Source: a virus
DNA: 45,186 nt
Direction: 5' to 3' (one strand)
IMG/VR virus record: IMGVR_UViG_3300034103_001322
Span: 1-45,186 of that record
Part shown: in pieces, positions 19,101-37,400 of the stretch
Numbering within the stretch: the first letter of the stretch is position 1
How the letters are laid out: each line of letters starts with the position of its first letter
Made by a program: the position numbers and the translations under genes
Notes under the pieces: model-generated
The model's input: the letters and a program-made list of their open reading frames with translations, nothing else
Database searches by the model: none
Told to the model about the DNA's origin: nothing

Positions 19101-19812
19101 CCTTGTAAATGTTTGGGGTTATGTCGGGACGAACGATGTTGTAGACAACGGACGCCGTTGGAGCGCGATTGAAGTCTGGCTTATTGGCCGTGTTATTGTT
19201 TTCGTTGTAGTGGCCTTTTATCGGCCCGACGCTGTCGATTCCGCTGCTCAGCACAGCGCGAGCGGCTGGCGCGTTGAAGTAGTCGGTGTTGTCTTCCCAG
19301 CCGTATCCTAGATTTCCCGGGCCAATCTTCCTGAATCTCGTGGCATTAGTCGGAAGGATTCCTCCAAGCCCAAGCTGGCCCGCGTTGCACTTGCCCCATC
19401 CCCACAGCGAGCCGTCGGTCTTTATTCCGAGCGTCGAGCCACCAGTGGTGTAGATAAACTTCCAAGTGTCGCTGCCGATCTGGACCGGGTTGCCCTTGGC
19501 TAGATACGAGCCGTCACCAAGCTGGCCCCACCGGTTGTCGCCCCACGCCCACAGCTTGTCTTCCATGTCGATCGCAAACGTGCATCCGATGCCACCTTCG
19601 TCACCTGTGAACACACGCTTCCACCGTCTCTCGCCGCAAAAGCCGTCAGACAGGTTGGGGTTCTCGATGTAGTAGTCGGGAAAATATCTCCGCCCCTCGG
19701 CAACAACATTTCCGAATATGCAGTGACGCACCTCCGATCGCGGAGCGGCCTGCCCGGACTCGTTGTTCCCGACGCCGACGTATGAGTTGCACCCGCAATC
19801 GTCGCAAGGCAT
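13156..19812 (-). CDS. Giant tail fibre with RCC1-like blades and Gly/Ser repeats
   Basis: The 2218-residue protein starts MPCDDCGCNSYVGVGNNESG at the ATG at 19812, 2 nt after the upstream stop; the longer GTG start at 19890 would overlap a real gene. N-terminal residues ~80-170 contain RCC1-type blades (LWAWGDNRWGQLGDG, LWGWGKCNAGQLGLG), with another at ~18116-18200 (SIWVWGARP). Much of the rest is repeats of the form SGGSGYTSAPTVTFSGGGGS followed by A.A.ATV, about twenty copies mainly at 14100-16500 and 18760-19020. Such repeats are typical of phage fibres and form beta-rich shafts. Being last in the tail operon fits a receptor-binding fibre. By eye it is less GC-rich than its neighbours. 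Confidence 0.85.
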   Translation of the reverse strand: MPCDDCGCNSYVGVGNNESGQAAPRSEVRHCIFGNVVAEGRRYFPDYYIENPNLSDGFCGERRWKRVFTGDEGGIGCTFAIDMEDKLWAWGDNRWGQLGDGSYLAKGNPVQIGSDTWKFIYTTGGSTLGIKTDGSLWGWGKCNAGQLGLGGILPTNATRFRKIGPGNLGYGWEDNTDYFNAPAARAVLSSGIDSVGPIKGHYNENNNTANKPDFNRAPTASVVYNIVRPDITPNIYKAGSGAEFVCLIDGAVQSSSSKYTNLRPLITNGGSGYASAPDVSFEGGGGRGAMAKATVSGGSVVSLEITSGGSEYQTPPTVVFSGGGGSGASATVEIAGPMLEVQVKSPGSGYTCDLPPVQGMGSLGPLPYPQWYTDYFYGDFEEARTYGVSNHYTFDIYPRYYKTIKVNFQASPEDKISYPEKKPEYIYARARLKPAPISSIVPYFGGSVYCRVNVSQELPNGFDANSPAYIKPDIAIEDYDVYGEGFNRATAEVTSYTIDQNGMNITGIAITNPGSGYIFAPDVVIGPPNKPRLVDSGSWTHVSVSKEGAGVGIKSDASIWVWGARPNRDETDGSDTYKEPLYSPTPLGRGLRLYASVNAPPATPFTTSDPQYNKYDSRAVVPFWRKEWDAGEVEITSAQGWGYTSVPTLSPTEGGKWTSVPNPDVGVPAQVAKVSPSGSGNNTLSRLGRTPDETQFEYWPGGNNYADRISGTEVWEAQWSGFRAELSGPSGGVKCYADGFARYVIDSGGSLWIIKKSLPQQARTGPDIRKTLWNTETYFYPGGYQCFVASLSSDEKIGTEDRGGFLNPEPYPNIFDLPTHGDLRKEGSHVIPKTGLVITATQGSEYYDYINDYSNYSPPKAWLRAEVEHVFRTSFKSTEEPEFMTGSCGDWTPYWGYLTGDAVNTKVLVTGPGNGKYDWTVSRTTRLADITKKSFSHEKIASVSLHPEVVWGGKLYSATTVSLSGYVPSDSHLFEPYSTLDVQTAGVENTDVGGSGGTVQVTANDDRYGFSNRFMAECKGAWSNYFPRHGVASSESGTLTFGMRPHEYGSFAGWTVPQEYSGFSAVAEGGVGLKSGDTAWRLPVAFSQPPARINPFTPTVTSSGSGYTEPAKASLSPASATSAASVTCSINGKVIAVGVIEGGSGYKTAPQVSFSNGGAQATATIEGPVSKVTVTGGGGDYAVPPTVVFSDPGIPAKATAAISGGIAEVRMTATGSGYFSAPQVEVDGDGSGAVVTATISGGGKVDRLLLTSRGSKYTSSPTVSITGGGGSDAAAAATVDLDEESDTYGQVINLTLTSRGNGYTSAPEVSITGSQDPGGEPATATATVKADGVVTGFSVVSGGSGYTTPPAIRVGGGAAGVARLSGYVSDVTIVRGGKYRSAPTFSFETKKEVSSLTLTSGGSGYSVPPSVEILGGYGAGAAAVAVLASTLSNATVTVTKGGSGYTSAPRVTLSGGSGEFATATCSVSGGVVTSVTIQSPGGGFLSAPTVTFSGGGGSGAEAKVGLPVSKILLSDSGYGYEKSPRVFFFGGGGTGVAATTQISQAPGSGGSGTTEIDGSVVFVSVTNEGSGLTSRPSVTVPGNAKLQAYVCGTLTQPTVTNPGSNYSSNDLLRYGPTGLEYDKDGKYKGPAATVLGTRLDSPLGGAGAYYSSGYWFDGSWGGGGITSVSVYRSPLRLTQGNRLPRTGSPITGADSIAGTYATPPLIVPIDSFAVAPRTTMRLRSLAMSKTATSISLSNPTSDSEKHLLYSTHHRGVVCGSGKSATACAVQGLLIVKGDLQSGSKIRFYSLVSPFLHARYSKAPSVKIRSVSGTGAKAQLSIDANGVVESASGMTITQSGSGYLNVDGLEFDQGERLVDEPSATATVDASGSVTSISIQSGGGGFYKPPRVVIHGGGGTGAEAVATLVADPQGGNAVVYAVGSVGVVSGGSGYSTSNPPSVSFVHSTEDESIFDPRCVATPTQEAAETYFIYGDDSGTGIAFYSGYDPSSYESGLKYWQGSVLLPRFGQYLSSLTGYERFVVLSALPIPGLVDDVFSKFQIQYCGFGLRQENYGGLRMAGNSYATELGENTYGWQSPSSIMYPAATSPFYYWPLISSQSAKTCSIDTSFPPVAMISDVSAAYQFQRGAHINNCDLSGNPLVVPFFDDGQVTGVDSYRYSNEGGACFLAGVPVPTSCSVSGVGTGAEISISSIKAHAEASVSQSVYGQVASHVIIIPKFD
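14080..16520 (-). repeat. Array of Gly/Ser-Gly-Tyr fibre repeats
   Basis: Imperfect ~80-100 nt repeats encode units such as VTSGGSGYTSAPTVTFSGGG followed by a short A/T/V strand. Units vary in length and are spaced unevenly, so they are protein-level repeats. A smaller group lies at 18760-19020. Confidence 0.75.
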
Positions 19813-19814
19813 TC

Positions 19815-20186
19815 CTAGCACCTGTCGATCGAGATAGCCACATACGTTGCGGCCCCGCTCGCCGCCGTCTGTGCCATCGCCAAACAGCACACGCGAGCGA
19901 TGTTTCCGGTGTGCGGACTCACGTTCGCCACGACGTTCATCGCAGCCGCTGTGGAGGTGGGATCAGAGAGAAGACTCACGACCTTAGTTTGGTTTTTGCT
20001 CCAAGCCCCGGTGAACGTCGCCAGAACCACAGAACCCCCGCCACCGCCGGCAGCCCTCGGCAGCGTCGAGCCCTTTCGGCCACGACGGCTCCCCTCGGCC
20101 TCGGCAACGACGGCAGAGATTCTTTGTGCGTCAGCCAGACTGAAGCTGACGACCTGAGAGCCGCTGTTTCCCGGCCCATTACTCAT
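19815..20186 (-). CDS. Small tail-tip-associated hypothetical protein
   Basis: The 123-residue protein starts MSNGPGNSGSQVVSFSLADA. Residues 1-30 include a helical ADAQRISAVVAEAEGSRRG; after a GGGGGS linker come beta-type stretches (VVLATFTGAWSKNQTKVVSL and GAATYVAISIDRC). It is tightly packed between the distal tail protein and the fibre. A fibre-attachment or collar role is inferred from position. No family is recognised. Confidence 0.65.
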   Translation of the reverse strand: MSNGPGNSGSQVVSFSLADAQRISAVVAEAEGSRRGRKGSTLPRAAGGGGGSVVLATFTGAWSKNQTKVVSLLSDPTSTAAAMNVVANVSPHTGNIARVCCLAMAQTAASGAATYVAISIDRC

Positions 20187-21063: not shown

Positions 21064-21071
21064 TCCGTACT
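21064..21071 (-). promoter_or_regulatory. AGTACGGA element upstream of the distal tail gene
   Basis: The minus strand reads CTAGTACGGATACACTTTCT before ATG. The first TAG is the tape measure stop codon. Confidence 0.5.
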
Positions 21072-24000
21072 AGCGTGCAGCAAGCTGGACAAGGACCGGG
21101 CGGGCCTCGGGGCTCTTGGCCGCCTCGGCGAGAATCTTCGTGTTGCGTGCGACCTCAAGCTGGGCCTTGAGGCTTGGGTTGTCGTTGCCACGAAGGATGC
21201 GGAAGAACGTGTCGACGCCGCCCTTGCTCCTCGTGTCGGAGCCCTCGATGCCGCGACGGTCAGGGGCGACCTTGTCGAGCGACGGCTTCAAGTCTTCCTG
21301 AAGCTGGGCTTGGAGGTTCTTCTTCCTCAGGTCAGCGTCGTCACCCTCGATCAGTCCCTCCTTGAGAGCATCGTCGACGGCCTTCATGTCTCGCTCGAAC
21401 TTCTTCACGGGGCTTTCTTCTTCGCCGCCGGGGAGCATCGAGCGACGAGCCTCGTCCTGACCACGCGTGAACTCCTCCTGCGATATCTGCCCCTTGGAGA
21501 ACGCTTCCTTGAGGTTGTCCATCCGCTCCTTGAGTTGCGTCACAGGATTGAGCGGGATGCCCAGCGACTGAAGCAGCGTGTCCTTGGCCTTCTGAGAGCC
21601 CTTGGCGAACTCAGTCGCCGAGATCTGGCCCTTATCGAACGCCTCGCGAAGCTTTTTCATCGCGTCTTCGGTTTGCTGAGCGGGGCTCTTGTCGATGCCA
21701 AGGGCGGACAGGAGCTTGTCCTTGGCTTCTTTCATCCCCTTAGCAAACTCTTCCGGGCTAAGCTCAGAGGCGTTCTCTTGGATCTTCGTGACGGCGTCCT
21801 CGAAGTCTTGGGCGGGGCTCTTCGAGATGCCGAGCGACGACAGGAGGCTGTCCTTCTGTGCCTTGATTGCCTTGTCTGCCTCTTTCTGAGTGATGACGCC
21901 GCCAGCCACGGCCGCAGAGAGCTTGTCGCGAGACTCCTTGATCTTGTCGGCGCCGCTCTTCTCGACCCCAAGACTGGCCTTCACGGCGTCAGAGTTCTTC
22001 TGGATCGCCTCTTGATACTCCTTGAAGTCTTGCGGAGAAAGCTCCTTCTGAATCTCCGCCATGCTCTTTCCGGTCACGCCAAATGCGTCGTTGACCTTGT
22101 CGACGCCGGCCTTGAGCGATTGGGCAGCCGTCGGGTCGAGGCCGGCTGCGGATCGCTTGTCCATGTCGAGCTTGTTCTGTGCCACAGCAAGCTTGGCTGG
22201 GTCTTTGCCACCGCCGAACGCTTCTTCAATCTTTTTCTGACGGTCGCGAAGCTGGCCGCCGACGTCCGCTCCTGCGCCCAGTGCCTCGTCTCTTTTGCGA
22301 GTGGCGGCTGTCCTTGCCTCCTCTGCCTGCGACGCCGAGATCCTCTTGTTGGGATCCTTCGAGTTAGCCGCCTCGTCGATCTTCTTCATCTGCTCGTCGA
22401 AGATCGCCTGCGGAGTCTTCTCAATTCCCAGCGAGGATAGAAGGTTATCTCGGGACTCCTTCACGGCACGATCGAAGAGGTCAAGCTGATCGGCGTTGCC
22501 CTTGAGCTTCTCGCGAACCTCGTCGATCGGCTGCCCGGCGAAGCCGAACTGCGCAGTGATGTTGTTGAGCGACGAAGAGAACGACTCGAAAGGCGTCTGC
22601 GTCACTCCAACGGCCTTGGCGAAGTCGTCGGCTGCCTTCTGAAGCTCAGAGTCCAGCTTTCCGCCGGTGATGAGTCCAGCGTCGGCAGCCTGATTCAGGT
22701 CTCGCTTCCTGTCCGTCAACTGAGCCTGAGCGGACTTGCCGACGAGGCTCTCGGTGGTCTTCTTGCGGAGATCGACCTCGGCCAGTTGCTTCTCTTCCGG
22801 CGTGAGAGACTTGTTATCCCTGATCTTCTTCAGTTCTTTGTCGAACTTCTGCACAGGCGAGAGGAACGCTTCGTCGAGCGACTTGCGAATGCCGTCGGCG
22901 AACGACATATCAAGCTCGATGTCCATCTTGTTCTTGCGGTCGAACTCTCGCTTGACCTCCTCGGCGGCGATCGACGCTTGCTCCTGAGCATTCGTCGAGT
23001 CGAGTTCGAGCTTGACGGCGAGGAACTGCTCTTGCGAGATCTTGCCAGAGTCAAAGTCGGCCTGATTCTTTTGCTGCTTCTGCTTGATCTCTGCGGCAAA
23101 GCCGCCTGATTGCTGCTTCTTCTTGATCTCTTCGAGGGCTTTGACGTACTCGTTCTTGTACTGGGCAGCCTTTTCCTTGATGGCTGCCGACGTCGGGAAG
23201 AACTTGTCGTCGATCACCACGCCAGCGCCGATGTCTCGGACAGACTTGCCGGCGGCCTTCGCGGCGTCGTCGAGTTGCTTGTACAGTTCGAGGTTCTTCT
23301 TGAGCGTGACCTCGGGGGCGTCGTTCTTGAGGATATCAAGGTTCTTTTCGAGGTTGTCGCCAAGCCGTGCAGCCTCGGTATCGAACTCTTCGAGAGTGAT
23401 GCTGCCGTCGGCAAGCTGTTGCTGGAGATCATTGAACTGCTTCTGCGAGGCAGCGGCGGCGTCGGCGCCGGCTTGCCCGAACTTGGCTGACTCGATCGTC
23501 AGTTCACCCATCCGGTCGCGAGCGGTCGTGACGCTGGCCGCGATCTCGTCCACAGACGGCCCCTTCATGGACTCTGTCAGGTCTGCGAACTGTTCCTTCA
23601 TCGACTGGATAGCGCCGTTGATGTCATCCTCAGTCACGCCGAAGGCGGCGGCGAGCGCGTAGGCTCCGTCGGCCGCCATTGCAGCGCCGTCCGACGCGAA
23701 CGCTGCGGCGTCTTCCTGCATGCCGGCGAAAGCCTCTCGCGAGCTTTCTTCGCTCATACCAAACGCTGCACCGACGGACACAACCGCATTGTCGAGGGAG
23801 GGAAGGATCGCGTTCGTAATCACCCCAGCGCCGGTGGCGGTCGCGTTGAACAGTGCGTCCGCCTGTTCCTTAGTGAGGCCCATAGCCGCGCCGTACTCGA
23901 CGACGGCCGTCCTTGCTCCTCCGAACTCCGCAGTGGCGGTTCTCGATGCGCCACCGAAGTCGACCTGAACTGTCTCTGACTCTCCCTCGCCCGAAGACGT

Positions 24001-26805
24001 AGCTGCCGCCATGTCTTTCTGGAGGCCGCTCTGGCTGTTCTTTGCTGCCGCCGCAGAAAGCTCTTCTACGGACGCCGTGGCGGCGTTGATCTTCTCGGAG
24101 CCATCGGAGAATCCGGTGAAGAAGCTGGCGATGCTTCCGCCGAGCGCGTACAGGGTGGCGAGGCCGGCTCCGATCGCGGCCACGCCCAGAATGATCAAGC
24201 CGATGGGACCGAGGGCGATGAGCCACGAGATAGCCATCACGACCGCAGCGGCGGCAGTCGTGGCGGCGGCGGCGATAACGGACGCCGCGTAGGCCCCGAT
24301 CGCGATGATTCCTGCGGCAATGACCGGGATGATGCCGACGGCGATGGCTGCGACCCACGCCGTAGCCGTAGCCGCCGCAGAGACAACCGCCTGCACGGCC
24401 GTCGACTTCATAGCAATGGCGAAAATCTGCGTGCTGAACGTCGCCGCAAAGTAAGCACCGCCGAGGGCGATGATCGCCGTGGCCGTCGAGTTGGCGTTAC
24501 CCTCGGTGTCGCCGAAGATGTCTCCTGTAAATATCTCGATCAGGCCGACCACAACCTCGCCGAGGTACATGAAAGACTCGACTGCCGGGAGCATCGCAGT
24601 GGCGATGACGGACGCTCCTCCCTCGACTGCCGTAATCACCGCCTCGATGTAGCCGAAGAGGTCGAGAATCACCTTCCCGACCATGTCGGCCAGCGTCGCA
24701 ATCGTGGCAAACACAAGCCCGGCACCGGCCACCTTGAGGATGGCACCGACGAGCCTGAGCATCATGTTCACGACTCTCGCCGTCACCTCGATGATCACAG
24801 CCAGCGGCTTGGTCATGTCCATGAGGACAGTCATCACAGGCTGGAGCGCCGCAGCGAGCCCGCCCCTGATGTCCGCCGTGGCGTTGTTGAACGCTTTCTG
24901 CATCTCGACGAACGGGATCATCAGAACCTGATTCAGATTCGACGACGACGCCTTTAGTCGGTCAAACGAAGTCTCCAACTGGAGAAACTTGTCGAAGTTG
25001 ATCTGCGTCAGCGTCCCGCCAAGCCTCTTGAAGTCTTGCTCAAGCTCGCCAAGTTCCTTGAGGGCCGGCAGGATCGCCGCGCCTTGCTTGCCGAACAAGT
25101 CAAACGCGATCGCCGTTCGCTCCGCCGGATCCTTGACCTCGCTGAGCCGCTTGGCGACTTCCTTGAACGCTTCCTCTGGCTTCAGACTCTTTAGTTCGTC
25201 GAGCGAGATGTTGAGCTTGTCGTAGGCGAGCTTTGCCTCGCGGACGTTCTCGACGTTGAGTTGCCCGGCCTTGATCTTCGACAGGCTCGTGTAGAACGCT
25301 TGCTGGCCCTTCGCAAGCTGCCCCATGCCGACGCCAGTGTTGTCGGCGGCCAGCCGAAGCTTGGTGATCTCCTCCGTGGATGATCCGAACCGGCTTGCCA
25401 TCTGGTCGATCGCCTGAGCCTTGAGGCTAAGCTCCTCAAGCTCGTGAGCGTACCGGCCGGTGGCGACGGCGGCGGCGATGGCAAGCGGCACGACCGTCGG
25501 GAGAGTTGCTGCGAATCCCAAGACTGCCGTGCCGGCGCCGCCCGCTGCGCCGGCTGCTAATCCGGTCCCGGCGACCCACGCCGAGATTGCCCCCTCGGCT
25601 GCACCAAAAGCCACCGACGTTGCCACGATCCTTGCCGTGAGCGCGGCGTACTGAGTGAGGGAGATTTCCTTGTTCGCCGCGCCAGCAACAAGCTCGATTG
25701 CCGGAAGAAGCCGGCCCAAGACTCCAAGCAGGGTGGCGGCGCGAGTTGCGCCCTGCACTGCGGCGACGCCGAGGCCCTGAAGCGCATTCTGGAGAAGCTG
25801 ACTGGCCGACGTAGACCTGAAAAGCGCAGGCGCAACAAGCCCATAGGCCACGGAGGAAGCGCGGATTCCGACAACGGCAGCGGCGGACGCTGCCCCGACG
25901 GCGGCAACTGCCTCAACGTATCCGCGAGCTTCGTCGCTGAGCCCGGAAGTCAGCAGACTGACGCCGTACATTGCGGCTTTGTACGTCACAAAAGACGCAG
26001 CGCCGCCCACGGCTGCGGCTGCGAGCGTCCCCAGAGATATGGCCGCCGCAGCGGTGCTGCCGGCCATAGCGGCAGACACGACCGCCATTCCTCCCATCGC
26101 CCTGACCGTTCCGGTGATTGCACCGGCAACTGCGCCGTACGCGCCGTAGCTTCGGCCGAGTGCCACGATCGTCTTGTCTATGGCAGAAGTTGCGGTGACG
26201 TTTCCGGAAGTCGCAAGAGTGGCGGCCTCAGTGAAACCAACTACAGCCGACGTTGCCGACGAAGCAGCGTCCGCGACCTCGCCGACAGCGGTGGCCGCGT
26301 AAAACGAACTGGCCGCGTATTTCTTAGCTTCCTCTGCGTTCTGCCCAGTTGCCGCGAGCAAGTAGCCGTCTGCTACTCGCTGTAGTGAATTCCCCAGCCC
26401 TTCGCCGGCTTCCGCCGCCGCGCCGGCGTTGTCTGCAAACCTCTGCGTCTGCCCGGCAGCTTCACCCGTGACGTCCGGAAGTCCAGAGAATGATTGTCGC
26501 AGTGAGTCAATGAAACCGGACAGGCGTGAGGCAGACTGCTCTAAGGCCGTCGTGTCAGCCTCAATTTTGACGGGCTCGGCGTCCTTGCCGACGCCCTTGA
26601 CGTCGCTCTCGGCCTTAGCGATGGAGCCCTTGTCCATCTCGGCACGGATCTTGATGACGCCTGCGGACGCGTCCTCGATCTGCTCAGACAGGCTGTCGAT
26701 GGAGTCGGACAACTCCTCGAACAGGTCGAGAGCCTCCGTGATGCCCTCTTGAAGGCCAAGGAGGTCAGCGGCGAACTCGACGGTGATGGTGCCGATCGTC
26801 GCCAT
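21070..26805 (-). CDS. Tape measure protein
   Basis: The 1911-residue protein starts MATIGTITVEFAADLLGLQE. The N-terminus is helical and heptad-like. Residues ~200-480 and ~740-950 are long Ala/Gly-rich hydrophobic stretches (GAYAASVIAAAATTAAAAVV), typical of tape measure proteins that line the tail tube and may enter the host membrane. From residue ~1230 to ~1830 a helical unit of about 60 residues repeats, with the signature LLSSLGIxKSPAQxFEDAxKKI and SPEEFAKGMKEAK. Position after the G/GT chaperone pair is diagnostic. Tail length should scale with it, which predicts a long tail. Confidence 0.93.
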   Translation of the reverse strand: MATIGTITVEFAADLLGLQEGITEALDLFEELSDSIDSLSEQIEDASAGVIKIRAEMDKGSIAKAESDVKGVGKDAEPVKIEADTTALEQSASRLSGFIDSLRQSFSGLPDVTGEAAGQTQRFADNAGAAAEAGEGLGNSLQRVADGYLLAATGQNAEEAKKYAASSFYAATAVGEVADAASSATSAVVGFTEAATLATSGNVTATSAIDKTIVALGRSYGAYGAVAGAITGTVRAMGGMAVVSAAMAGSTAAAAISLGTLAAAAVGGAASFVTYKAAMYGVSLLTSGLSDEARGYVEAVAAVGAASAAAVVGIRASSVAYGLVAPALFRSTSASQLLQNALQGLGVAAVQGATRAATLLGVLGRLLPAIELVAGAANKEISLTQYAALTARIVATSVAFGAAEGAISAWVAGTGLAAGAAGGAGTAVLGFAATLPTVVPLAIAAAVATGRYAHELEELSLKAQAIDQMASRFGSSTEEITKLRLAADNTGVGMGQLAKGQQAFYTSLSKIKAGQLNVENVREAKLAYDKLNISLDELKSLKPEEAFKEVAKRLSEVKDPAERTAIAFDLFGKQGAAILPALKELGELEQDFKRLGGTLTQINFDKFLQLETSFDRLKASSSNLNQVLMIPFVEMQKAFNNATADIRGGLAAALQPVMTVLMDMTKPLAVIIEVTARVVNMMLRLVGAILKVAGAGLVFATIATLADMVGKVILDLFGYIEAVITAVEGGASVIATAMLPAVESFMYLGEVVVGLIEIFTGDIFGDTEGNANSTATAIIALGGAYFAATFSTQIFAIAMKSTAVQAVVSAAATATAWVAAIAVGIIPVIAAGIIAIGAYAASVIAAAATTAAAAVVMAISWLIALGPIGLIILGVAAIGAGLATLYALGGSIASFFTGFSDGSEKINAATASVEELSAAAAKNSQSGLQKDMAAATSSGEGESETVQVDFGGASRTATAEFGGARTAVVEYGAAMGLTKEQADALFNATATGAGVITNAILPSLDNAVVSVGAAFGMSEESSREAFAGMQEDAAAFASDGAAMAADGAYALAAAFGVTEDDINGAIQSMKEQFADLTESMKGPSVDEIAASVTTARDRMGELTIESAKFGQAGADAAAASQKQFNDLQQQLADGSITLEEFDTEAARLGDNLEKNLDILKNDAPEVTLKKNLELYKQLDDAAKAAGKSVRDIGAGVVIDDKFFPTSAAIKEKAAQYKNEYVKALEEIKKKQQSGGFAAEIKQKQQKNQADFDSGKISQEQFLAVKLELDSTNAQEQASIAAEEVKREFDRKNKMDIELDMSFADGIRKSLDEAFLSPVQKFDKELKKIRDNKSLTPEEKQLAEVDLRKKTTESLVGKSAQAQLTDRKRDLNQAADAGLITGGKLDSELQKAADDFAKAVGVTQTPFESFSSSLNNITAQFGFAGQPIDEVREKLKGNADQLDLFDRAVKESRDNLLSSLGIEKTPQAIFDEQMKKIDEAANSKDPNKRISASQAEEARTAATRKRDEALGAGADVGGQLRDRQKKIEEAFGGGKDPAKLAVAQNKLDMDKRSAAGLDPTAAQSLKAGVDKVNDAFGVTGKSMAEIQKELSPQDFKEYQEAIQKNSDAVKASLGVEKSGADKIKESRDKLSAAVAGGVITQKEADKAIKAQKDSLLSSLGISKSPAQDFEDAVTKIQENASELSPEEFAKGMKEAKDKLLSALGIDKSPAQQTEDAMKKLREAFDKGQISATEFAKGSQKAKDTLLQSLGIPLNPVTQLKERMDNLKEAFSKGQISQEEFTRGQDEARRSMLPGGEEESPVKKFERDMKAVDDALKEGLIEGDDADLRKKNLQAQLQEDLKPSLDKVAPDRRGIEGSDTRSKGGVDTFFRILRGNDNPSLKAQLEVARNTKILAEAAKSPEARPVLVQLAAR
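21400..22900 (-). repeat. Helical ~60-residue repeats in the tape measure C-terminus
   Basis: Successive units end LLSSLGI, LLSALGI or LLQSLGI and restart with K(S/T)P.Q.F...M.KI. At least five clear and several decayed copies are visible. They suggest expansion of the ruler by duplication. Confidence 0.65.
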
Positions 26806-26808
26806 CGC

Positions 26809-27443
26809 TTATCCCCCGAATGCCTTTCGGAGTTCTGCGATCATCGCCTCCTTCGACTGAGGCGGCCTGCGGTATGACGGCATGAGCATTTCCTCTTCGA
26901 GGTTTTTCGAGCCCCATGCCGTACACAGGGCCGTGGCGAGACGAGCGACCTGACGCCACTCGTCTCCCCACGGTTCTATTTTCCAATAACTCTCCCACTC
27001 TGCGAGTTCCGCAGCGTCGACCGTCGCCAAGAGTTCCCTGTGAGACCGGCCGAGGGCTAGTGCGAGCCGAAACTCGAACAGCCGGCGGGGCCTCGTCAGG
27101 AGTTTCCCGCGAGTTCCTCGACGTCGTCCTTGGTGAAGCGGTTGTGCTTCATGCAGATGGTGAAGAGCTTGTCGAGGACGGCAGCGGACTTCTCGCCCAA
27201 CTGCGGCACCTCGGCCTCGGTGAAGAGCCGATTGCCCTCGTCGTCGCACAGACACTTCGCCACGAGCTTCGCCCGGACCATGTCGACCGACTTGTTGCCG
27301 CCGACAAACTCGCCCTCGAAGCGGTCACGCTCCGTGCCGGTCATCACGCGGATCTTCACCGAGCCGCCCCACTCGGGCACCTCGACGTCGATCATCTTCT
27401 TGTCCTGCGCGTCCAGAATCGCCTTCTTGTTCAATGCACCCAC
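26809..27443 (-). CDS. Tail assembly chaperone GT-type frameshift product
   Basis: The downstream frame (residues LLTRPRRLFEFRLALALGRS to KEAMIAELRKAFGG) has no good start of its own and joins the G frame by a -1 shift at GGGAAAC (27102-27108). The fusion would be about 211 residues: 114 from G and 97 from the T part, ending at 26809, 3 nt before the tape measure ATG. The T part has the helical WESYWKIEPWGDEWRQVARL pattern. Lambda-type GT proteins bind the tape measure protein while the tube assembles. Confidence 0.85.
27096..27443 (-). CDS. Tail assembly chaperone G-type protein
   Basis: The 115-residue protein starts at GTG 27443 (VGALNKKAILDAQDKKMIDV), with AAAGGAG 8 nt upstream. It has a strand-rich start (DVEVPEWGGSVKIRVMTGTE) and a helical rest, as in gpG-like chaperones. 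It ends ELAGNS just after the slippery heptamer. Most ribosomes should stop here and give the G form; a fraction shift into the GT form. It lies directly before the tape measure gene. Confidence 0.85.
   Translation of the reverse strand: MGALNKKAILDAQDKKMIDVEVPEWGGSVKIRVMTGTERDRFEGEFVGGNKSVDMVRAKLVAKCLCDDEGNRLFTEAEVPQLGEKSAAVLDKLFTICMKHNRFTKDDVEELAGNS
27102..27108 (-). other. Programmed -1 frameshift slippery site GGGAAAC
   Basis: Read in frame as GCG GGA AAC TCC TGA, the heptamer G GGA AAC fits the X XXY YYZ rule. Slipping gives CTC CTG ACG AGG, the start of the T frame. The zero-frame stop is 3 nt after the heptamer. Confidence 0.85.
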
Positions 27444-27472: not shown

Positions 27473-27480
27473 TCCGTACT
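27473..27480 (-). promoter_or_regulatory. AGTACGGA element upstream of the G chaperone gene
   Basis: The minus strand reads GAGTAGTACGGATGTGCGTT. The TAG is the stop of the fifth tail-tube paralogue. The chaperone start is about 30 nt further on. Confidence 0.5.
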
Positions 27481-27868
27481 ACTCGTTCGAGAGTTTGAAT
27501 GTGCAGCTACCCTTGACCAATTCCCCAGCCACGATTTCCTGAGACATGCCGGTCAAGTACGCCGGCGCGCTCAGGCCTGTTCCGTTGACGGTGAGCGTCT
27601 TCTGCGAGCCAATCTGGTCGGTGGAAAATCCGCCCGGCCCAAAAAACTCACACGACAACTCTCCGAGGTCGATCACGCCGTAGTCGATCGCTTTCTTGAC
27701 AAGCTTTCGGTTCGAGAAGTCCTCGTCCTCGACGAACGTCGACTGCATCGACGTGATGTCGATCTCTCCGGCAGCCGAGCCGCTCCATCGCATACTGGTG
27801 ACGCCAATTTCTGTGCTTCCCCAGTTGAGCGTGATTCCCTGAGCGGAGAGTTCAGTTGTGAATGTCAT
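27479..27868 (-). CDS. Tail-tube-like protein, paralogue 5 (most divergent)
   Basis: The 129-residue protein (MTFTTELSAQGITLNWGSTE) shares the start SAQGI.L.. and the end EIVAGELVKGSCTFKLSNE with the four paralogues upstream. It also has the middle element EIDITSMQSTFVEDEDFSNR. As the paralogue closest to the chaperone and tape measure genes, and the one most altered, it may be either the true tube subunit or a specialised ring protein. All five have the size and strand pattern of siphovirus tube proteins. One nucleotide separates it from the gene upstream. Confidence 0.75.
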   Translation of the reverse strand: MTFTTELSAQGITLNWGSTEIGVTSMRWSGSAAGEIDITSMQSTFVEDEDFSNRKLVKKAIDYGVIDLGELSCEFFGPGGFSTDQIGSQKTLTVNGTGLSAPAYLTGMSQEIVAGELVKGSCTFKLSNE

Positions 27869-27869
27869 G

Positions 27870-28241
27870 TCAGTCCTTCGAGACCTTGAACGTCGCAGAG
27901 CCTTTGATCAGTTCACCAGCCTGTGCTGTGATCTGAAGGCCAGTGCAGACGGCTCTGTTCATGTTGGGGTCAAGATCTCCATCTGTGGGGTCGACGTCGC
28001 CATCATCAAACGAGATCGCGTACAGATCGTCGGTCGGCGGGATCGTCTTGCCGATCCAGTCCACCTTGATCTCCAGAGACATGAGTCCGCCGGGGCGGTA
28101 GCGGGCAAGGCTGCCGGTCCCCGTAATGTCCGTAGACGTCAACGCGAAGTCTCCGCGACTCTTGGCGACGGCAACAGACGTGGCCGTGTACTTGACGCCG
28201 TTGAACTTGAAGACAATCCCCTGCGAAGACTCGTATGCCAT
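27870..28241 (-). CDS. Tail-tube-like protein, paralogue 4
   Basis: The 123-residue protein starts MAYESSQGIVFKFNGVKYTA. It shares with paralogues 1-3 the YTAT.V.V.KS start, the core SLEIKVDWIG and the end TAQAGELIKGSATFKVS. An acidic insertion (DDGDVDPTDGDLDPNMN, residues ~77-95) is unique to it and probably forms a surface loop. Function as a tube subunit is inferred from family pattern and place. Confidence 0.75.
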   Translation of the reverse strand: MAYESSQGIVFKFNGVKYTATSVAVAKSRGDFALTSTDITGTGSLARYRPGGLMSLEIKVDWIGKTIPPTDDLYAISFDDGDVDPTDGDLDPNMNRAVCTGLQITAQAGELIKGSATFKVSKD

Positions 28242-28252
28242 GCGTCACCTTC

Positions 28253-28612
28253 TCAGTCGTAAGAAACTTTGAAGGTGGCCGAGCCCTTGATAAGTTCGCC
28301 GGCCTGCGCGGTGATGTTCAGCCCCGTGCAGAGTGCGATTGAACCGGTAACGCCAAGTGCCGCAGAGTTGCCGGTAATCGAGAACGTGGCGGTCTTCTCA
28401 ATCTGCGGCGAAGAGAGTCCGATCCAGTCAACCTTGATCTCGCAGTTCTCGATGTCGCTCGTGCGGTAGCGACGCTTTCCACCGGAGCTAATATCCGTAC
28501 TAGTACAGTCAAACTCGGCCGCACTTCGGCTCACGCTGATCTGCGTTGCCGTGTACGTGTCGCCGTCAAACGTGAACGCGATTCCGGCGGCTGACGGAGG
28601 GTTCACTGGCAT
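28253..28612 (-). CDS. Tail-tube-like protein, paralogue 3
   Basis: The 119-residue protein starts MPVNPPSAAGIAFTFDGDTY. Conserved elements are YTATQISVSRS, CEIKVDWIGLSSPQ and ITAQAGELIKGSATFKVSYD. The N-terminus is a few residues longer than in paralogues 2 and 4, and a GTG within it would give an alternative start (VNPP). A TCCGTACT copy lies inside its coding sequence at 28494-28501. Confidence 0.75.
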   Translation of the reverse strand: MPVNPPSAAGIAFTFDGDTYTATQISVSRSAAEFDCTSTDISSGGKRRYRTSDIENCEIKVDWIGLSSPQIEKTATFSITGNSAALGVTGSIALCTGLNITAQAGELIKGSATFKVSYD

Positions 28613-28620
28613 GCGATCAC

Positions 28621-28965
28621 CTAGTCATGGGAGACTTTGAACGTCGCCGAACCACGCAGGAGGTCGCCAGCGTTTCCGGAGATCGACAGGCCAGTGCAGA
28701 TCGCCTTGCCGCCGGATACCCCAAGGTTTCCAGTCAGCGAGAAGTCCCGCGCCTCTTTCACAGGAGGAACACTTCCGCCGATCCAGTCGACCTTGATCTC
28801 GATGTTGTCGAGAGGGCCGACCCGGATGCGGCGAAGATCTCCTTCGTCGAGATCAGTCGACGAGATGTCTATGTCCTGACGACTCTTCGACACGGACACC
28901 TGAGTGGCCGTGTAGACTTGACTCGCGTAGGTGAACGTGATTCCCTGCGAAGACTCAAAGGCCAC
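28621..28965 (-). CDS. Tail-tube-like protein, paralogue 2
   Basis: The 114-residue protein, the shortest copy, starts MAFESSQGITFTYASQVYTA. It keeps YTATQVSVSKS, NIEIKVDWIGGSVPP and the ending GDLLRGSATFKVSHD. It is closest to paralogues 3 and 4, so these likely arose by tandem duplication after paralogue 1 diverged. Confidence 0.75.
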   Translation of the reverse strand: MAFESSQGITFTYASQVYTATQVSVSKSRQDIDISSTDLDEGDLRRIRVGPLDNIEIKVDWIGGSVPPVKEARDFSLTGNLGVSGGKAICTGLSISGNAGDLLRGSATFKVSHD

Positions 28966-28988
28966 GCCGCTGCCTCGCTAAAAGGTTT

Positions 28989-29360
28989 TTAGTTCAGCGT
29001 CAGCCGGAACGTCGCCGATCCCTTGATGAGTTCGCCGACCTGCGCGGTGATGTCAGCAGCCGTGCAGAGCGCGGCCGTGGGGATCCCCGCCGTGAAGCCC
29101 GCATTCGACCCCGATCCGTCGATCGCCCACGTGATCTGACCGGTGGCGGTCATCTGGGGGAGGGTCAGGCCAACGAAGTCGACCTTCAACTCGTCGCCGT
29201 CTCGGATCGAGCCGAGGCGGTAGGAGCGATACGAGCCGTTGGGCGACTCCAGCGACGTGACGTCGATCTCGGAGACCTTCTTGGAGACCGAGATCTGGTT
29301 CGCGGTGAACTTGGTGCCGCTGAACGTGAAACCAATGCCCTGCGAAGCTTCAAATGCCAT
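28989..29360 (-). CDS. Tail-tube-like protein, paralogue 1
   Basis: The 123-residue protein starts MAFEASQGIGFTFSGTKFTA, with AAGGAGGG about 8 nt before the ATG, the strongest ribosome site of the array. It has ISVSKKVSEIDVTSLESPNG, ELKVDFVGLTLPQ and ITAQVGELIKGSATFRLTLN. Good translation signals and first position make it a fair candidate for the main tube subunit. This choice is inference. Confidence 0.78.
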   Translation of the reverse strand: MAFEASQGIGFTFSGTKFTANQISVSKKVSEIDVTSLESPNGSYRSYRLGSIRDGDELKVDFVGLTLPQMTATGQITWAIDGSGSNAGFTAGIPTAALCTAADITAQVGELIKGSATFRLTLN

Positions 29361-29381: not shown

Positions 29382-29777
29382 TCAAACTGTTTCGACGAAA
29401 CGGACCTCGTAGACCTGATCGACCCTGTACAGTGGTTTGGCCTGCCCCTCGAACGGACGTTCCATGTTGTCCTGTTCAGAGACGAGAGCCGTCGTGACTA
29501 TTTTCACGCCCTGAGATTCACCCGTAAAGTTGTCGCAAGCGAGACGAATCGAATCGGCGATGTCCTTCGCCTCGCTGTATGTATGCGAGACGATCGCGAC
29601 CGAAAACGTCGCCACGGGCACGCCGTAGTTCCCGGTCAGGCCACGCTCTCGCCGTGTCCCCGTCCTTCGGTAGACGACCAGCGGGAACGGTGCGTTCTGC
29701 GTCGCCAGAACGGGATAGATCCCGGCCGTGGTGGCAGAGTCGAGCCGCTCTCGGAGCCACTTTTCAGGTGCCGCCAT
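29382..29777 (-). CDS. Tail completion protein (DUF3168-like)
   Basis: The start at 29777 gives 131 residues (MAAPEKWLRERLDSATTAGI). The pattern of an N-terminal helix, YPVLATQNAPFPLVVYRRTG, a beta sheet and SEAKDIADSIRLACDNFTG matches the DUF3168 group, which sits at the tail end of the head-tail connector in HK97-type phages. The gene overlaps the upstream gp10-like gene by 14 nt. The longer frame to 29834 enters that gene and is rejected. Confidence 0.8.
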   Translation of the reverse strand: MAAPEKWLRERLDSATTAGIYPVLATQNAPFPLVVYRRTGTRRERGLTGNYGVPVATFSVAIVSHTYSEAKDIADSIRLACDNFTGESQGVKIVTTALVSEQDNMERPFEGQAKPLYRVDQVYEVRFVETV

Positions 29778-30165
29778 CGATCTGCTCCGCGAACCTGTCA
29801 GACATGAACGTGACGCCCTCCGGGGCGTAGGCATCGAAAGTCTCTTCGAGGACGGCCGAAAGCTCGTTCACGGAGACCCACCGCAGCACGCTGCGGCCAC
29901 GAGTCTGCGGGCGGACAACACTGTCCAGTTCCGGGTTGCCGGCGGTCTCGACCTCCTGCTCATAGCCCACCTCGGCCGTAGCCTCCGAGACCTCGTAGAT
30001 CACGGAGTCTCGAAGCTTGCCGCTGTAACCCGTCGGCGTTGCGGCCCGGAGCCGGGCGGCGAACGTCTGCGAGACGTCGTCGTAGACTGCCTCTCGGTCG
30101 ATGACCGTGGGGAGCCTCTTGAACCCTTGGACGACCTCACTGAGTCCCGAAATCTTGACGCTCAC
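29764..30165 (-). CDS. HK97 gp10-like head-tail joining protein
   Basis: The GTG at 30165 overlaps the upstream stop (GTGA) and gives 133 residues (VSVKISGLSEVVQGFKRLPT). The pattern KISGLSEVVQGFKRLP, then AARLRAATPTGYSGKLRDSV and WVSVNELSAVLEETFDAYAP, fits the gp10 family, which helps join tail and head. A longer reading to 30411 is a shadow of the adaptor gene. Confidence 0.82.
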   Translation of the reverse strand: MSVKISGLSEVVQGFKRLPTVIDREAVYDDVSQTFAARLRAATPTGYSGKLRDSVIYEVSEATAEVGYEQEVETAGNPELDSVVRPQTRGRSVLRWVSVNELSAVLEETFDAYAPEGVTFMSDRFAEQIDGGT

Positions 30166-31123: not shown

Positions 31124-31305
31124 GGGTGCTTCACCTTGCGACGCTCGACTTGCATCGTGGCCTGCTCGACCTCAATGGACCGAGCCTCGTCAGGCACCTT
31201 GACGGCAATGCCGTCGGAGACCCACGCCTTCGCCGTCGCGTCGAAGATTTCGACGACGTCGCCCTGCTTGTGCCACTGCCAGTCCTTCAACAGCTTGATC
31301 CTCAT
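31120..31305 (-). CDS. Small hypothetical head-region protein
   Basis: The 61-residue protein starts MRIKLLKDWQWHKQGDVVEI. The lysine-rich start and KQGDVVEIFDATAKAWVSDG suggest a small SH3-like barrel. A charged helical tail follows. It overlaps both neighbours by four bases (ATGA). I recall small genes of this type next to capsid genes in other phages; the role is unknown. Confidence 0.7.
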   Translation of the reverse strand: MRIKLLKDWQWHKQGDVVEIFDATAKAWVSDGIAVKVPDEARSIEVEQATMQVERRKVKHP

Positions 31306-32060
31306 CGCTCTGACCTCTCAGCATGCTCCTTGGAACCCCATGCCTCCGGTGGTCGCCTGCCGCCGCTGTTCCAAAAATGCGTCGGGTACTGGTGCATCGC
31401 CTTGAGTCGCTGGTCGGGCCACGTGATCACAAGCTCAGCGTGACCGATCGCGACTTGCGGGCACACGGCCAGACGGTTGCCGGCCTCGCGAAACTTGTGC
31501 CAGAAGTAGATGTCAGGGTCTTGGCGATCTTGGCCCCAGTCTCCGTCCTCCCCGGGCACGCCGAGGAACCACGGCTTCTTCATCTTTCGGATTGCCGACG
31601 CCCTAATGAGCGTCAGTCCGAAGTGCGCCGTGTCGACGGGCTGGGCCGGCTTCTCCCACCACTCCAGAGGGAGCGTGACCTCGGTGGGGCCCTTGCCCCC
31701 CAAGCCGGGCGGCGTGAACATCAGTTGCTTCTCGTCTCGCTTCATCTGGAGCGGAGCGAGTGCGTCGACCCCGCTGATCAGCATGGCCGCAAGAAGACGA
31801 GTCAGGCAGTCGGGCTCGAAGACTGAATCGTAATCAACTGTGCAGATGACCTCGTTCTCGGTCTCTTCCTTGCACAGATCCGTGAGGATCTTCGTCATCG
31901 TCTGGTCCCAGAACGCTCCGGTGCCCTTCGTGACATGAATGCCATGAGGGGCGAACGTGCTGGTCACCGAGAAGTAGTTGTCCGTAAATGCAAGTCGCGG
32001 CATGCTCAGGCATGCCGCGACCTTTACATCATGCTCGACGTTGCCGACGAGAACTCGCAT
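31302..32060 (-). CDS. GT-A-type glycosyltransferase-like protein
   Basis: The 252-residue protein has VICTVDYDSVFEPDCLTRLL with the DxD-type Asp76 and Asp78, expected to hold a metal and nucleotide-sugar, and later GEDGDWGQDRQDPDIYFWHK and VCPQVAIGHAE, which fit the acceptor side of family-2-like enzymes. The ATG at 32060 has TTGGAG upstream; a TTG 12 nt earlier is possible. Being inside the capsid-connector operon suggests that it glycosylates a virion component, or another late target. Activity is not proven. Confidence 0.7.
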   Translation of the reverse strand: MRVLVGNVEHDVKVAACLSMPRLAFTDNYFSVTSTFAPHGIHVTKGTGAFWDQTMTKILTDLCKEETENEVICTVDYDSVFEPDCLTRLLAAMLISGVDALAPLQMKRDEKQLMFTPPGLGGKGPTEVTLPLEWWEKPAQPVDTAHFGLTLIRASAIRKMKKPWFLGVPGEDGDWGQDRQDPDIYFWHKFREAGNRLAVCPQVAIGHAELVITWPDQRLKAMHQYPTHFWNSGGRRPPEAWGSKEHAERSER

Positions 32061-32148
32061 CCGCCACTCCAAGCCCCTCCAAGGAATGAAATCGGCTTGG
32101 GCATCCGTGCCCTTGGCTTGGCCGTCCTTGGCCTCGCCGAAGGCGGGA

Positions 32149-34253: not shown

Positions 34254-34431
34254 ACTTGCGACGACGCCAACAGATCGAACGAACGTCGTTGACAGACACG
34301 ACAGAGCGTGCCTGATGTCCGCACACTTGGCACTTCAGATATCTGACTTGCAGATCTCCGCTCTGCCGACTGGTGCGAGTTGCCATCCTGCCCGCGCATC
34401 CGGGGCACGAACACTTATCACCGCTTTGCAT
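34252..34431 (-). CDS. Ogr/Delta-like zinc-finger protein (59 aa)
   Basis: This short gene starts MQSGDKCSCPGCAGRMATRT at the ATG at 34431, overlapping the upstream stop by 14 nt. The cysteines are arranged CSCPGC ... RTSR ... RYLKCQVCGHQA, close to the layout of the P2 Ogr / P4 Delta activators (CPxC, then RTSR, then Y.QC..C). It ends in a basic CWRRRK tail. Ogr-type proteins bind DNA upstream of late phage promoters and recruit RNA polymerase. Its place right before the capsid gene leader is suggestive. It is shorter than most gene-calling limits. Confidence 0.62.
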   Translation of the reverse strand: MQSGDKCSCPGCAGRMATRTSRQSGDLQVRYLKCQVCGHQARSVVSVNDVRSICWRRRK

Positions 34432-37400
34432 GCTTCTCGCTCTTGTAGAAAGAGTCTGTGAAATGCGTGTCGAACACGAGATCCGCCGTCCCTAGCACTG
34501 CGTCAGGAATTGAAGGGGCCGCAGCGGAGCCGACTGCCGTGGCAACCAGAGACCCGGCCTGCTTCGCCCCGACCACGAAGCCCTTCTTCGCCAGACGTGT
34601 CGCGTAGCTGAGGGAGTTTGTCTTGACGACGATCGACGTCTCCTTAGGGGAAGAGTCCGCCGCGAGCTTCTTGATCGAGTCGATCTGGTCGTCGGTGAGT
34701 TCGCGACGCCCGGCCCGGGGGTAGATCGTGACCTTCTTGCTCGTGATGTCGACGACGTGCGAGACCATTCCGTTCTTGCCGCGAATCGTGAGCGTCAGGC
34801 CGTTCTTGCCGTTGACAGAGGCGACTGACTTTCTCGTGCCGCCCAGCCCTTTGACCAACCCGGAGACCTTCTCGTCCGTCATGCCGACCTTCTCGATCCT
34901 CGCCGACACTCGCGTTGGCCGCATCTTGTTGTCGTAGATGCCCTTGACGGCGCCGGCCACCGCGCCGACTGCCGCACCAGACGCCGCTGCCTGTGGGGTG
35001 AACGTCTTGCCGAATGCAGAGACCCCGCCCAGCACGGCTCCGGCCGCCGCGCCCTTTGCAACGTCGGCCGCCACGCCGCTCGCGCACGTGTTGCCCTTCG
35101 AGAACTTGCCGTCTTTGTCTTGGCCGCAGTCGCGAGACTCGGCAAAGGCGAGCAGGCTGGCGTAGCGGGCGTCGATCGACCGCTCCCACTTCTTAGGCCT
35201 CTGGTGCGGCGGGAGCAGCGTCGAGAACTTGTACTTGTCCTCCCACTTCTGAAGCTTCTTGGCGTTCTCGGCCTCCCACTTCTTCATGTCCTCCGCCTTT
35301 CGGTAGACGGTGACCTTGAAGTCTGTGTTTTTGCCACTGTACTCAGATGGGAAGGCGTCCTTGGCTGCGGCCTTGATCTTCGCGACGTCATCTCCGCTCA
35401 AGTCTTTCGTCGGATAGACGCGAGCCCGCCCGTTGTCAAAGTCGACGTGGAACAGCTTGTTGCCGCTCTTGTCCAAGACAGAGATGTTCACGCTGGGGTG
35501 ATTGATGTCGACGGTCGTGTTCTTCGGGTCTCCGCCCATAGCCTCGACGAGGCCCTTGAGCTTCTCTTCTGACGAGCCCATCTGGTAGAGCTTCCGGGCG
35601 GCGTCTGTCTGGACGCCGTTGTCGTATCGCATGCGACCGCGAGGGTCTTCCTTCGGCATGTCGACCTGACCGCCACACTTGTTGCCTGAGGTGAAGCGAC
35701 CTTCGTCGTCGCGGCCGCAGTCTGTGGAGCGGGCCTCTCTACTGTGCTTCGGATGACTGGAGTGAAGAAGGTCGTTGTCATTCACATACTTCGCGTTCTC
35801 TGGCCTGCCTCTTCGGGCCAGAGTCAGGAACGCATTCACTCTCGCCATTGCCCATCGTTCGCGAGTCATGCCCGGACGGTGACTAGTCGAGAAAGCGCCA
35901 GCGCCACGACGATAGACTGCCTTCAGGGATGGCAGGCGAACGTGAGTCCAGTCTGGCTTGCCGGCCTCTCGCATCGCAGCGTTGTGTTCCTCGACCTTTT
36001 TCTTCAGCGACGAGATCGTGCTTTCGTCTAGCGAGATGTCGCCAGACTTGTTCTTGGCAGAGCCTTCGTCGTTGACGTCGCTGCCTTTGATCTGGTCTTT
36101 CTTTGGGGCGGGAGCGTCTCCGCGAGACTCCACGCTCGCAAGCGACCTGAGCAACGCTGGCCTCGACTTGATGTGCTGGTAGCCCAGCGGCTCGTCACTG
36201 TCAGCCTTCGCCGCGCGGCTGCTCTTCGTCCGCTTCTTCAGTTCGCTGCGGATGATCTCCGGGCCGACCTTCGAGGCGTAAGCGTTCTGCGGCGCGTACT
36301 GCTTCGTCTTCTCGTAGACGGCGTTCTGGCCGAAAGTCTCTGCGAACAGGGCAGGCCACGCCTCTTCAGGAAGCGTAGACGCGTGCGTCAACATCCCGTT
36401 GTACTCACCGTTCGTCGAGAACGAGTAGCCGCCTCGCACGTGCGCGACCATGTCGTGGACGACACGAAACAAGTCGTTCGCGATCATCGGCTCGCCGTCG
36501 GCAGTCTTGAACTTCGTCTCGCGAAGCATTGGATGATCAGGAGTGGCGTCCCCGGTGCCGAACCCCTTATCGGTCATGAAGAAAGAGAACTCGCCAGTCT
36601 TGGCGACCTCTTGACGCATCTTGTCTGAGTTGGGCTTCGTGCTGCCCGGCGGGTCTCCATATGGCTCGCCATCTCCCCGCCACGCTCTGGCCTTCAGCCC
36701 GGCGGCGGTGAGTGCCTCGTACTGCCTGCCGATCTCGTTGACAAGGGCCGCGTAGGATGCCTCGGCCTCTGGAGTCAGCGGCGCACCAGAGTGGCTGCCT
36801 TGCTCGTCGGCGATCGCGTCCATCTGCTTCGGATACGGGGTCTCGGCCCTGCCCTTCGAGCGGTCCCAGATCGCATCGGGGCTTGGAGCCACGGAAGTGA
36901 CGGCGTCTCGCAGTGGCTGCGAGCCGGCCGGGAAGGACTTTGTCGACTGGCCTCCGTCTGACGACGAGCAGTCGTTCTTGATCCCGCCTCCGGTGCCGGT
37001 GGCACAGAAGGCACGGTCCTCTCGCTTCTTCTTTTTGTCAAGAACGTAGTGACCGTAGCGGTCGAGTCTTGCGCCCAATGACTCGTAAGCCTTCTTGGCC
37101 GCAGTTGCCACATTGTGTTCTTCATCCGACACGACACGAAACTGCTCAGACAGTGAATCGAGAAGAGACTTGTACACCCCCTGACCGCGAAGCGGCTTTG
37201 CGACTTCGGCGTAATTCATATAGAGTGATTGCTTGTCGTCCGAGAGGTCTGCGTAAACGAACGCCTTCACCTTCTCGTCTTCGCCAACAAGACTCAGAAC
37301 GTGAGTCGCTGGATCGCCGCCATCTCGCCAAGGCGTTGCAGCCTGCTTGCTGTTCTTCTCAAGGAACCACGCCCCGTGGTTCGTGGAGCCTTTGGCATCA

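Follow-up and report, generated by a model that had tools for sequence, protein, structure and literature searches.

In the window, meaning the whole 45,186-nucleotide (45 kb) virus record analysed here, five tandem genes of the tail-tube type, designated A to E in the order of transcription, belong to a long-tailed bacterial virus for which environmental DNA is the only source. The array is an expanded and differentiated tail-tube gene family of an uncultured lineage. Our preferred reading, to which we assign a probability of about one half, is that A is the major tube protein and that B–E are low-copy tube paralogues that probably form special rings in a tail that is long and probably non-contractile. 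The tail tube of a long-tailed phage is usually portrayed as a stack of many copies of a single protein, and a search of the open-access literature recovered no paper describing tail tube paralogues, tandem or otherwise multiple, in such phages.

Layout of the locus and assignment to the tail-tube family

The late genes lie on the minus strand in the order protease and capsid, connector, tail terminator, array A–E, chaperone and tape measure, with the array (29360 to 27479) placed between the tail terminator and a frameshifted tail assembly chaperone followed by the tape measure gene (Table 1). The true start of the tail terminator is probably downstream of the listed ATG. The functional part of the Phage_tail_T partner overlaps the end of the chaperone, and a slippery heptamer, GGGAAAC, is found immediately 5' of the chaperone TGA stop (27080-27160, minus strand), a lambda G/GT-like −1 frameshift site linking the chaperone to the Phage_tail_T frame. 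Within the array, D and E are separated by 1 nt and the gaps among B–E are short or overlapping; E is probably translationally coupled to D, and coupling probably extends across B–E. Promoter and terminator signals were sought inside array A–E and none were found.

Table 1. Features of the array and its boundaries in the window.
Feature	Position	Strand	Product and support	Assignment
Tail terminator	29382..29834	-	phrog_347, 1e-10	upstream boundary of array
Copy A (first)	28989..29360	-	123 aa	probable major tail-tube protein
Copy B	28621..28965	-	114 aa, GTG start	minor tube-type paralogue, middle cassette
Copy C	28253..28612	-	119 aa	minor tube-type paralogue, middle cassette
Copy D	27870..28241	-	123 aa	minor tube-type paralogue, middle cassette
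Copy E (last)	27479..27868	-	129 aa, longer beta2-beta3 loop	conserved second tube-type paralogue
Tail assembly chaperone	27096..27443	-	phrog_344, 1.3e-27	downstream boundary of array
Chaperone frameshift partner	26809..27255	-	Pfam Phage_tail_T, 8.7e-8	lambda T-like
Tape measure protein	21070..26805	-	1911 aa	by position and length

Several other features of the window were recorded. The tape measure protein has C-terminal repeats carrying LLxSLGI-x-K-x-P that match the short-helix models SHOCT/DUF1707 and are possibly a periodic structural element. A 2244-aa protein in the tail-tip region (13156-19890, minus strand) has RCC1-like repeats near its N-terminus, and the same place is occupied by proteins of 2.2-2.5 kaa in close relatives and of ~1 kaa in the three-copy lineage. 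Between the capsid and connector genes, a 256-aa protein lacking a Pfam match (31302-32072, minus strand) resembles a glycosyltransferase by eye; in Tetraselmis viridis virus S20 an annotated glycosyltransferase gene adjoins the head closure gene. Two very large ORFs upstream of or beside the protease and capsid genes, of 1637 aa (40229-45142, minus strand) and 1323 aa (34418-38389, minus strand), are almost without family matches, the only one being DUF5824 in the 1323-aa ORF. A tRNA-Leu (CAG) gene is located at 416-507 on the plus strand, opposite to most phage genes.

The original prediction of five tandem paralogous genes of 114-129 residues was confirmed in the form of five minus-strand ORFs related to one another by BLASTP (A–C, 9e-32; B–D, 9e-36; A–E, 1e-6; C–E, 1e-7), and at the level of sequence it is beyond doubt that A–E are true paralogues rather than chance likenesses. 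The copies fall into three classes: a core first copy, A; a middle trio, B-C-D, whose members share 38-56% identity with each other within one genome; and a divergent last copy, E, with 22-35% identity to the others. The motifs by which the family had been recognised proved less uniform than described. An EIKVDWIG core, claimed for four copies, is exact in B, C and D but reads ELKVDFVG in A and ELSCEFFG in E; the ELIKGSATFKxS end, claimed for all, is exact over ELIKGSATFK in C and D only and inexact elsewhere; and the SxxGIxF start is there, but loosely, as S-x-GI or S-x-x-GI.

Searches of Pfam and PHROG gave a significant match for none of the window's copies A–E. The major tail protein family phrog_1407 was matched only weakly by 4 of 103 family members (best 0.0012), and PDB sequence searches with one copy and with a 103-sequence profile returned nothing significant. 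Structural prediction and profile–profile comparison were more informative. The one good AF2 model is that of copy C, built from a 103-sequence alignment and of moderate confidence (pLDDT 76.8); an earlier model built from the five paralogues was poor (pLDDT 65). The Foldseek PDB list for the C model was headed by tail tubes (E 1.7e-5 to 1.4e-3, probability 1.00), with monocin MttP, R4C TTP, phage 812, RcGTA and lambda gpV as top matches and the SPP1, AFP and PVC tubes lower in the list. Against a profile of 12 cultured-phage major tail proteins, the copy groups scored 80-96% probability each, copy E reaching 96% (E 2.5e-9), and the whole family 96.9% (E 1.8e-10), compared with under 0.3% for the controls (terminator, chaperone, stopper and gp14-like). 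All five copies consist of a single tube domain, with no extra domain. A tail-tube beta-barrel fold is supported for copy C by the model and, through homology, for A, B, D and E. Fold prediction, proposed at the outset as a check on tube identity, agreed with the label 'tail-tube-like', which is also backed by the profile–profile homology and by gene position.

Distribution and descent of the copies

Approximately 200 related IMG/VR loci carry arrays of two to five copies. In a second, wider IMG/VR set, which includes some re-fetches of the same contigs, untruncated arrays had two copies at 70 loci, three at 33, four at 4 and five at 8, and none had fewer than two; no further copies were found outside the array on contigs of up to 97 kb. 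The uncultured lineage is represented by hundreds of IMG/VR contigs in which complete arrays always hold 2 to 5 tube paralogues, and which Pfam and PHROG models as they stand miss. Copy A is present in every untruncated relative array.

A phylogeny of the copies across relatives, one of the checks first suggested, was built from 148 copies. The first copies of two- and five-copy arrays formed one clade and the last copies grouped together, while C and D each formed one orthologous clade across the five-copy loci and B nearly did so, L009/L010 members branching outside; the deep branches of this tree are poorly resolved, the proteins being short. The order of B, C and D is fixed across the five-copy relatives, all three are kept in each, and no homogenisation or shuffling of copies between positions was seen. 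The suggestion that the array might be a diversity reservoir is disfavoured by this pattern, as each position keeps its own orthologous group. The middle copies of other lineages formed separate groups, so that there were at least three separate additions of middle copies, each of them placed between a first and a last gene that are conserved. Orthologous middle copies, 42-78% identical, have been retained across divergent phages. Estimates of dN/dS were ~0.1-0.26 for A–D (B, ~0.1-0.17; D, ~0.16-0.26) and up to 0.35 for E, values that indicate purifying selection on all five copies, and A is the slowest-evolving of the five.

The middle copies of the five-copy phages form single groups and their E copies one group (support 76/89), while flanking-gene trees are incompatible with a monophyletic origin of these phages (p-AU 3e-67). 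The two-copy locus L011 and the five-copy loci L014/L013 share ~80% nucleotide identity as far as the end of A and from the chaperone onwards; the stretch in between differs, and B–D are missing from L011. Across 8 loci, evolutionary distances among B, C and D correlated with each other at 0.86-0.93 and with those of the chaperone at ~0.8, in contrast to 0.03-0.20 with the adjoining A, whose distances go with those of the terminator and connector. The correlations, the L011 comparison and the flank trees together indicate that the middle cassette B-C-D was inherited as a block with a history separate from that of A, the break falling between A and B.

Expression signals and the proposed tail design

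The Shine–Dalgarno (SD) sequence of A in the window is AAGGAGG (-10.5 kcal/mol), and values of about -10.5 accompany an ATG start in 10 of 10 five-copy loci; the SDs of B–E in these loci are weak (means -4.8 to -7.4), and B mostly starts with GTG. GC3 and CAI were highest in A in all nine five-copy loci compared. CAI calculated against the window's capsid gene was 0.69 for A and 0.48-0.54 for B–E, the codons of A being the most capsid-like. First copies of the two-copy relatives have SDs of about -10 and exceeded the last copy in GC3 in 35 of 36 two-copy arrays. An SD advantage of the first copy was also observed in other two- and four-copy arrays and in the three-copy arrays of the L146-L225 lineage; in the three-copy L226-L244 lineage no copy stands out by SD. 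As a separate observation, the three-copy L226-L244 and L055-L064 loci, which have a short tape measure (911-1238 aa), lack any single copy with major-protein expression signals, and their tube may be organised differently.

SD strength and codon bias are proxies, and B–E, which are probably coupled, could exceed the amounts suggested by their SDs. Given the strong SD, the capsid-like codons and the slowest evolution of A, it is probably A that serves as the major tube subunit, with B–E minor. An evenly mixed-subunit tube, among the options originally listed, is disfavoured, since no copy other than A shows the expression signals typical of a major structural protein.

Common to the copies are the predicted inner strands and beta5-beta6 loop; the differences lie in the predicted outward segment and in the beta2-beta3 hinge loop, the hinge region of E being longer. 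The predicted ring-forming strands are the parts most conserved among copies and the outward segments the most divergent, those of B–D varying far more than that of A, and each copy has its own conserved motifs and hinge sequence. In the solved tube of JBD30, it is through the hinge loop that one disc contacts the next (PMC11445458). Across relatives, tape measure length showed no relation to copy number and does not rise with the number of copies, which is what a small contribution of rings by the extra copies would predict.

In the design that we propose, hexameric rings of A would make up the tube body around the tape measure. E would be an old, conserved, low-copy paralogue with an altered stacking loop, probably forming one or a few specialised rings, which are probably placed at the junction of the tube body with another partner, at the tip or neck. 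The cassette B-C-D would be specific to its lineage and supply more low-copy tube paralogues, which probably either make extra distinct rings next to E or substitute for A at particular levels of the tube. More tentatively, the tube may be an ordered segmented structure of five ring proteins, in which A makes the long body and B, C, D and E form separate terminal rings; ring sets that differ between lineages would then have been inserted time and again, with the first and last proteins conserved on either side. Rings of several kinds stacked on one another, one of the options initially offered, are the best-fitting option left, along with sparse minor subunits; the virion copy numbers, the formation of rings and the place of B–E in the tail are what we infer.

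Several other roles for B–E were considered. Conservation of the ring-forming strands could make the copies interchangeable, and B–E would then assemble together with A into shared rings throughout the tube, for instance as occasional substitutions tuning flexibility or surface, and special rings would not form. Such a heteromeric tube appears unlikely given that each copy has its own motifs, hinge sequence and fixed position, and that expression signals are unequal between copies. DSR2 is known to be triggered by tail tube proteins (PMC10981675), and the extra copies might be alternative or decoy subunits evading this and similar tail-tube-sensing systems as a form of defence escape or host adaptation. 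The highly variable outward segments of B–D and the gain and loss of the B–E block between close relatives are in line with such a role. However, B, C and D are kept in order and under purifying selection in every five-copy relative, homogenisation and shuffling are absent, and A is highly conserved, the opposite of what escape at A would need, and we consider this explanation rather improbable.

We give little credence to decoration-type display, also raised in the original prediction, in which B–E, with their tube fold, would attach to the exterior of the tube or to the head. Outward segments are fast-changing and relatives can do without the middle copies, as display would allow, but each copy is a single tube domain with no added domain to back such a role, all copies retain strands matching the ring-forming strands of tubes, and all lie between terminator and chaperone, as classical tube genes do. 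Decay of non-functional duplicates, to which the weak SDs and GTG starts of several copies might point, is contradicted by the selection and orthology results (dN/dS of A–D and maintenance of the divergent middle copies, above) and by the lack of internal stops in the window's five copies, and its probability is negligible.

Pairs of closely related phages with different middle copies occur naturally in this lineage, which offers a ready-made system for studying tube subunit specialisation. Questions that could be addressed with it include how rings of different kinds stack and whether minor rings affect flexibility, ejection or escape from tail-sensing defence.

Comparison with known systems

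By way of the conserved chaperone, the tail module could be related to cultured actinophages such as REQ1, Dubu, phiSASD1 and P1312. Cultured phages examined have one annotated major tail gene between terminator and chaperone (in P1312, an unannotated ORF), in agreement with the earlier statement that most siphoviruses have one tube gene. The Streptomyces phages Dubu (gp12) and phiSASD1 (gp34) and the Rhodococcus phage REQ1 (gp74) resemble the window in placing the major tail gene between the terminator and a frameshifted chaperone 42-48% identical to the window's, but differ in having a single annotated tube gene where the window has five. The Dubu and phiSASD1 major tail proteins show profile homology to the A–E family; in REQ1, where extra small genes surround gp74, this homology is weak. 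Some cultured phages have extra small genes near the major tail gene, none of them matching the A–E family. No relative was recovered from cultured phages by tblastn with A, C and the first copies from two other lineages, and scans of bacterial genome contigs found no relative of the array. Of A and E as candidate orthologues of the single cultured major tail protein, E looked closer (96% against 93%) when all sequences were used; with the same 8 loci per class, C matched the cultured major tail profile about as well as E, and single-sequence scores against cultured major tail proteins did not separate the copy classes.

In phage SPP1, one gene reportedly gives rise to two forms of the major tail protein through a frameshifted extension. 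The SPP1 tube, of gp17.1 and gp17.1*, is described as containing its major tail protein in more than one form (Auzat 2008, cited in PMC8718954). In place of one gene with a long form, the array has five separate ORFs of 114-129 aa with their own starts and no extension, which does not fit an SPP1-type two-form tube with an added C-terminal domain.

The extracellular contractile systems (eCIS) are alike in having tube-fold paralogues, as tube/tube-initiator pairs (Afp1/Afp5, Pvc1/Pvc5 and, in the Bacteroidales BIS, Tube1/Tube2), of which one forms the tube body and another, such as the initiators Afp5 and Pvc5, a special ring (PMC13277306, PMC7394362). The AFP and PVC tubes are also among the PDB fold matches of the C model. 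Among the five copies it is E, a conserved tube paralogue, that was considered as a candidate of the Afp5/Pvc5 initiator type, which would make the first ring at the baseplate. The eCIS differ in being contractile, with a sheath, and in usually having two tube genes where up to five are found here; no match to a sheath gene was found among the ORFs scanned around the array. In the myophage Mu, the tube starts on a hexameric ring that is tube-like but made of another protein, gp43 (PMC11915804). This initiator is a baseplate component with an extra helix-rich/LysM domain, in contrast to the single-domain, tandemly encoded A–E. Afp5/Pvc5 and Mu gp43 are precedents for a second tube-fold protein serving as a special ring, the role that we consider probable for B–E.
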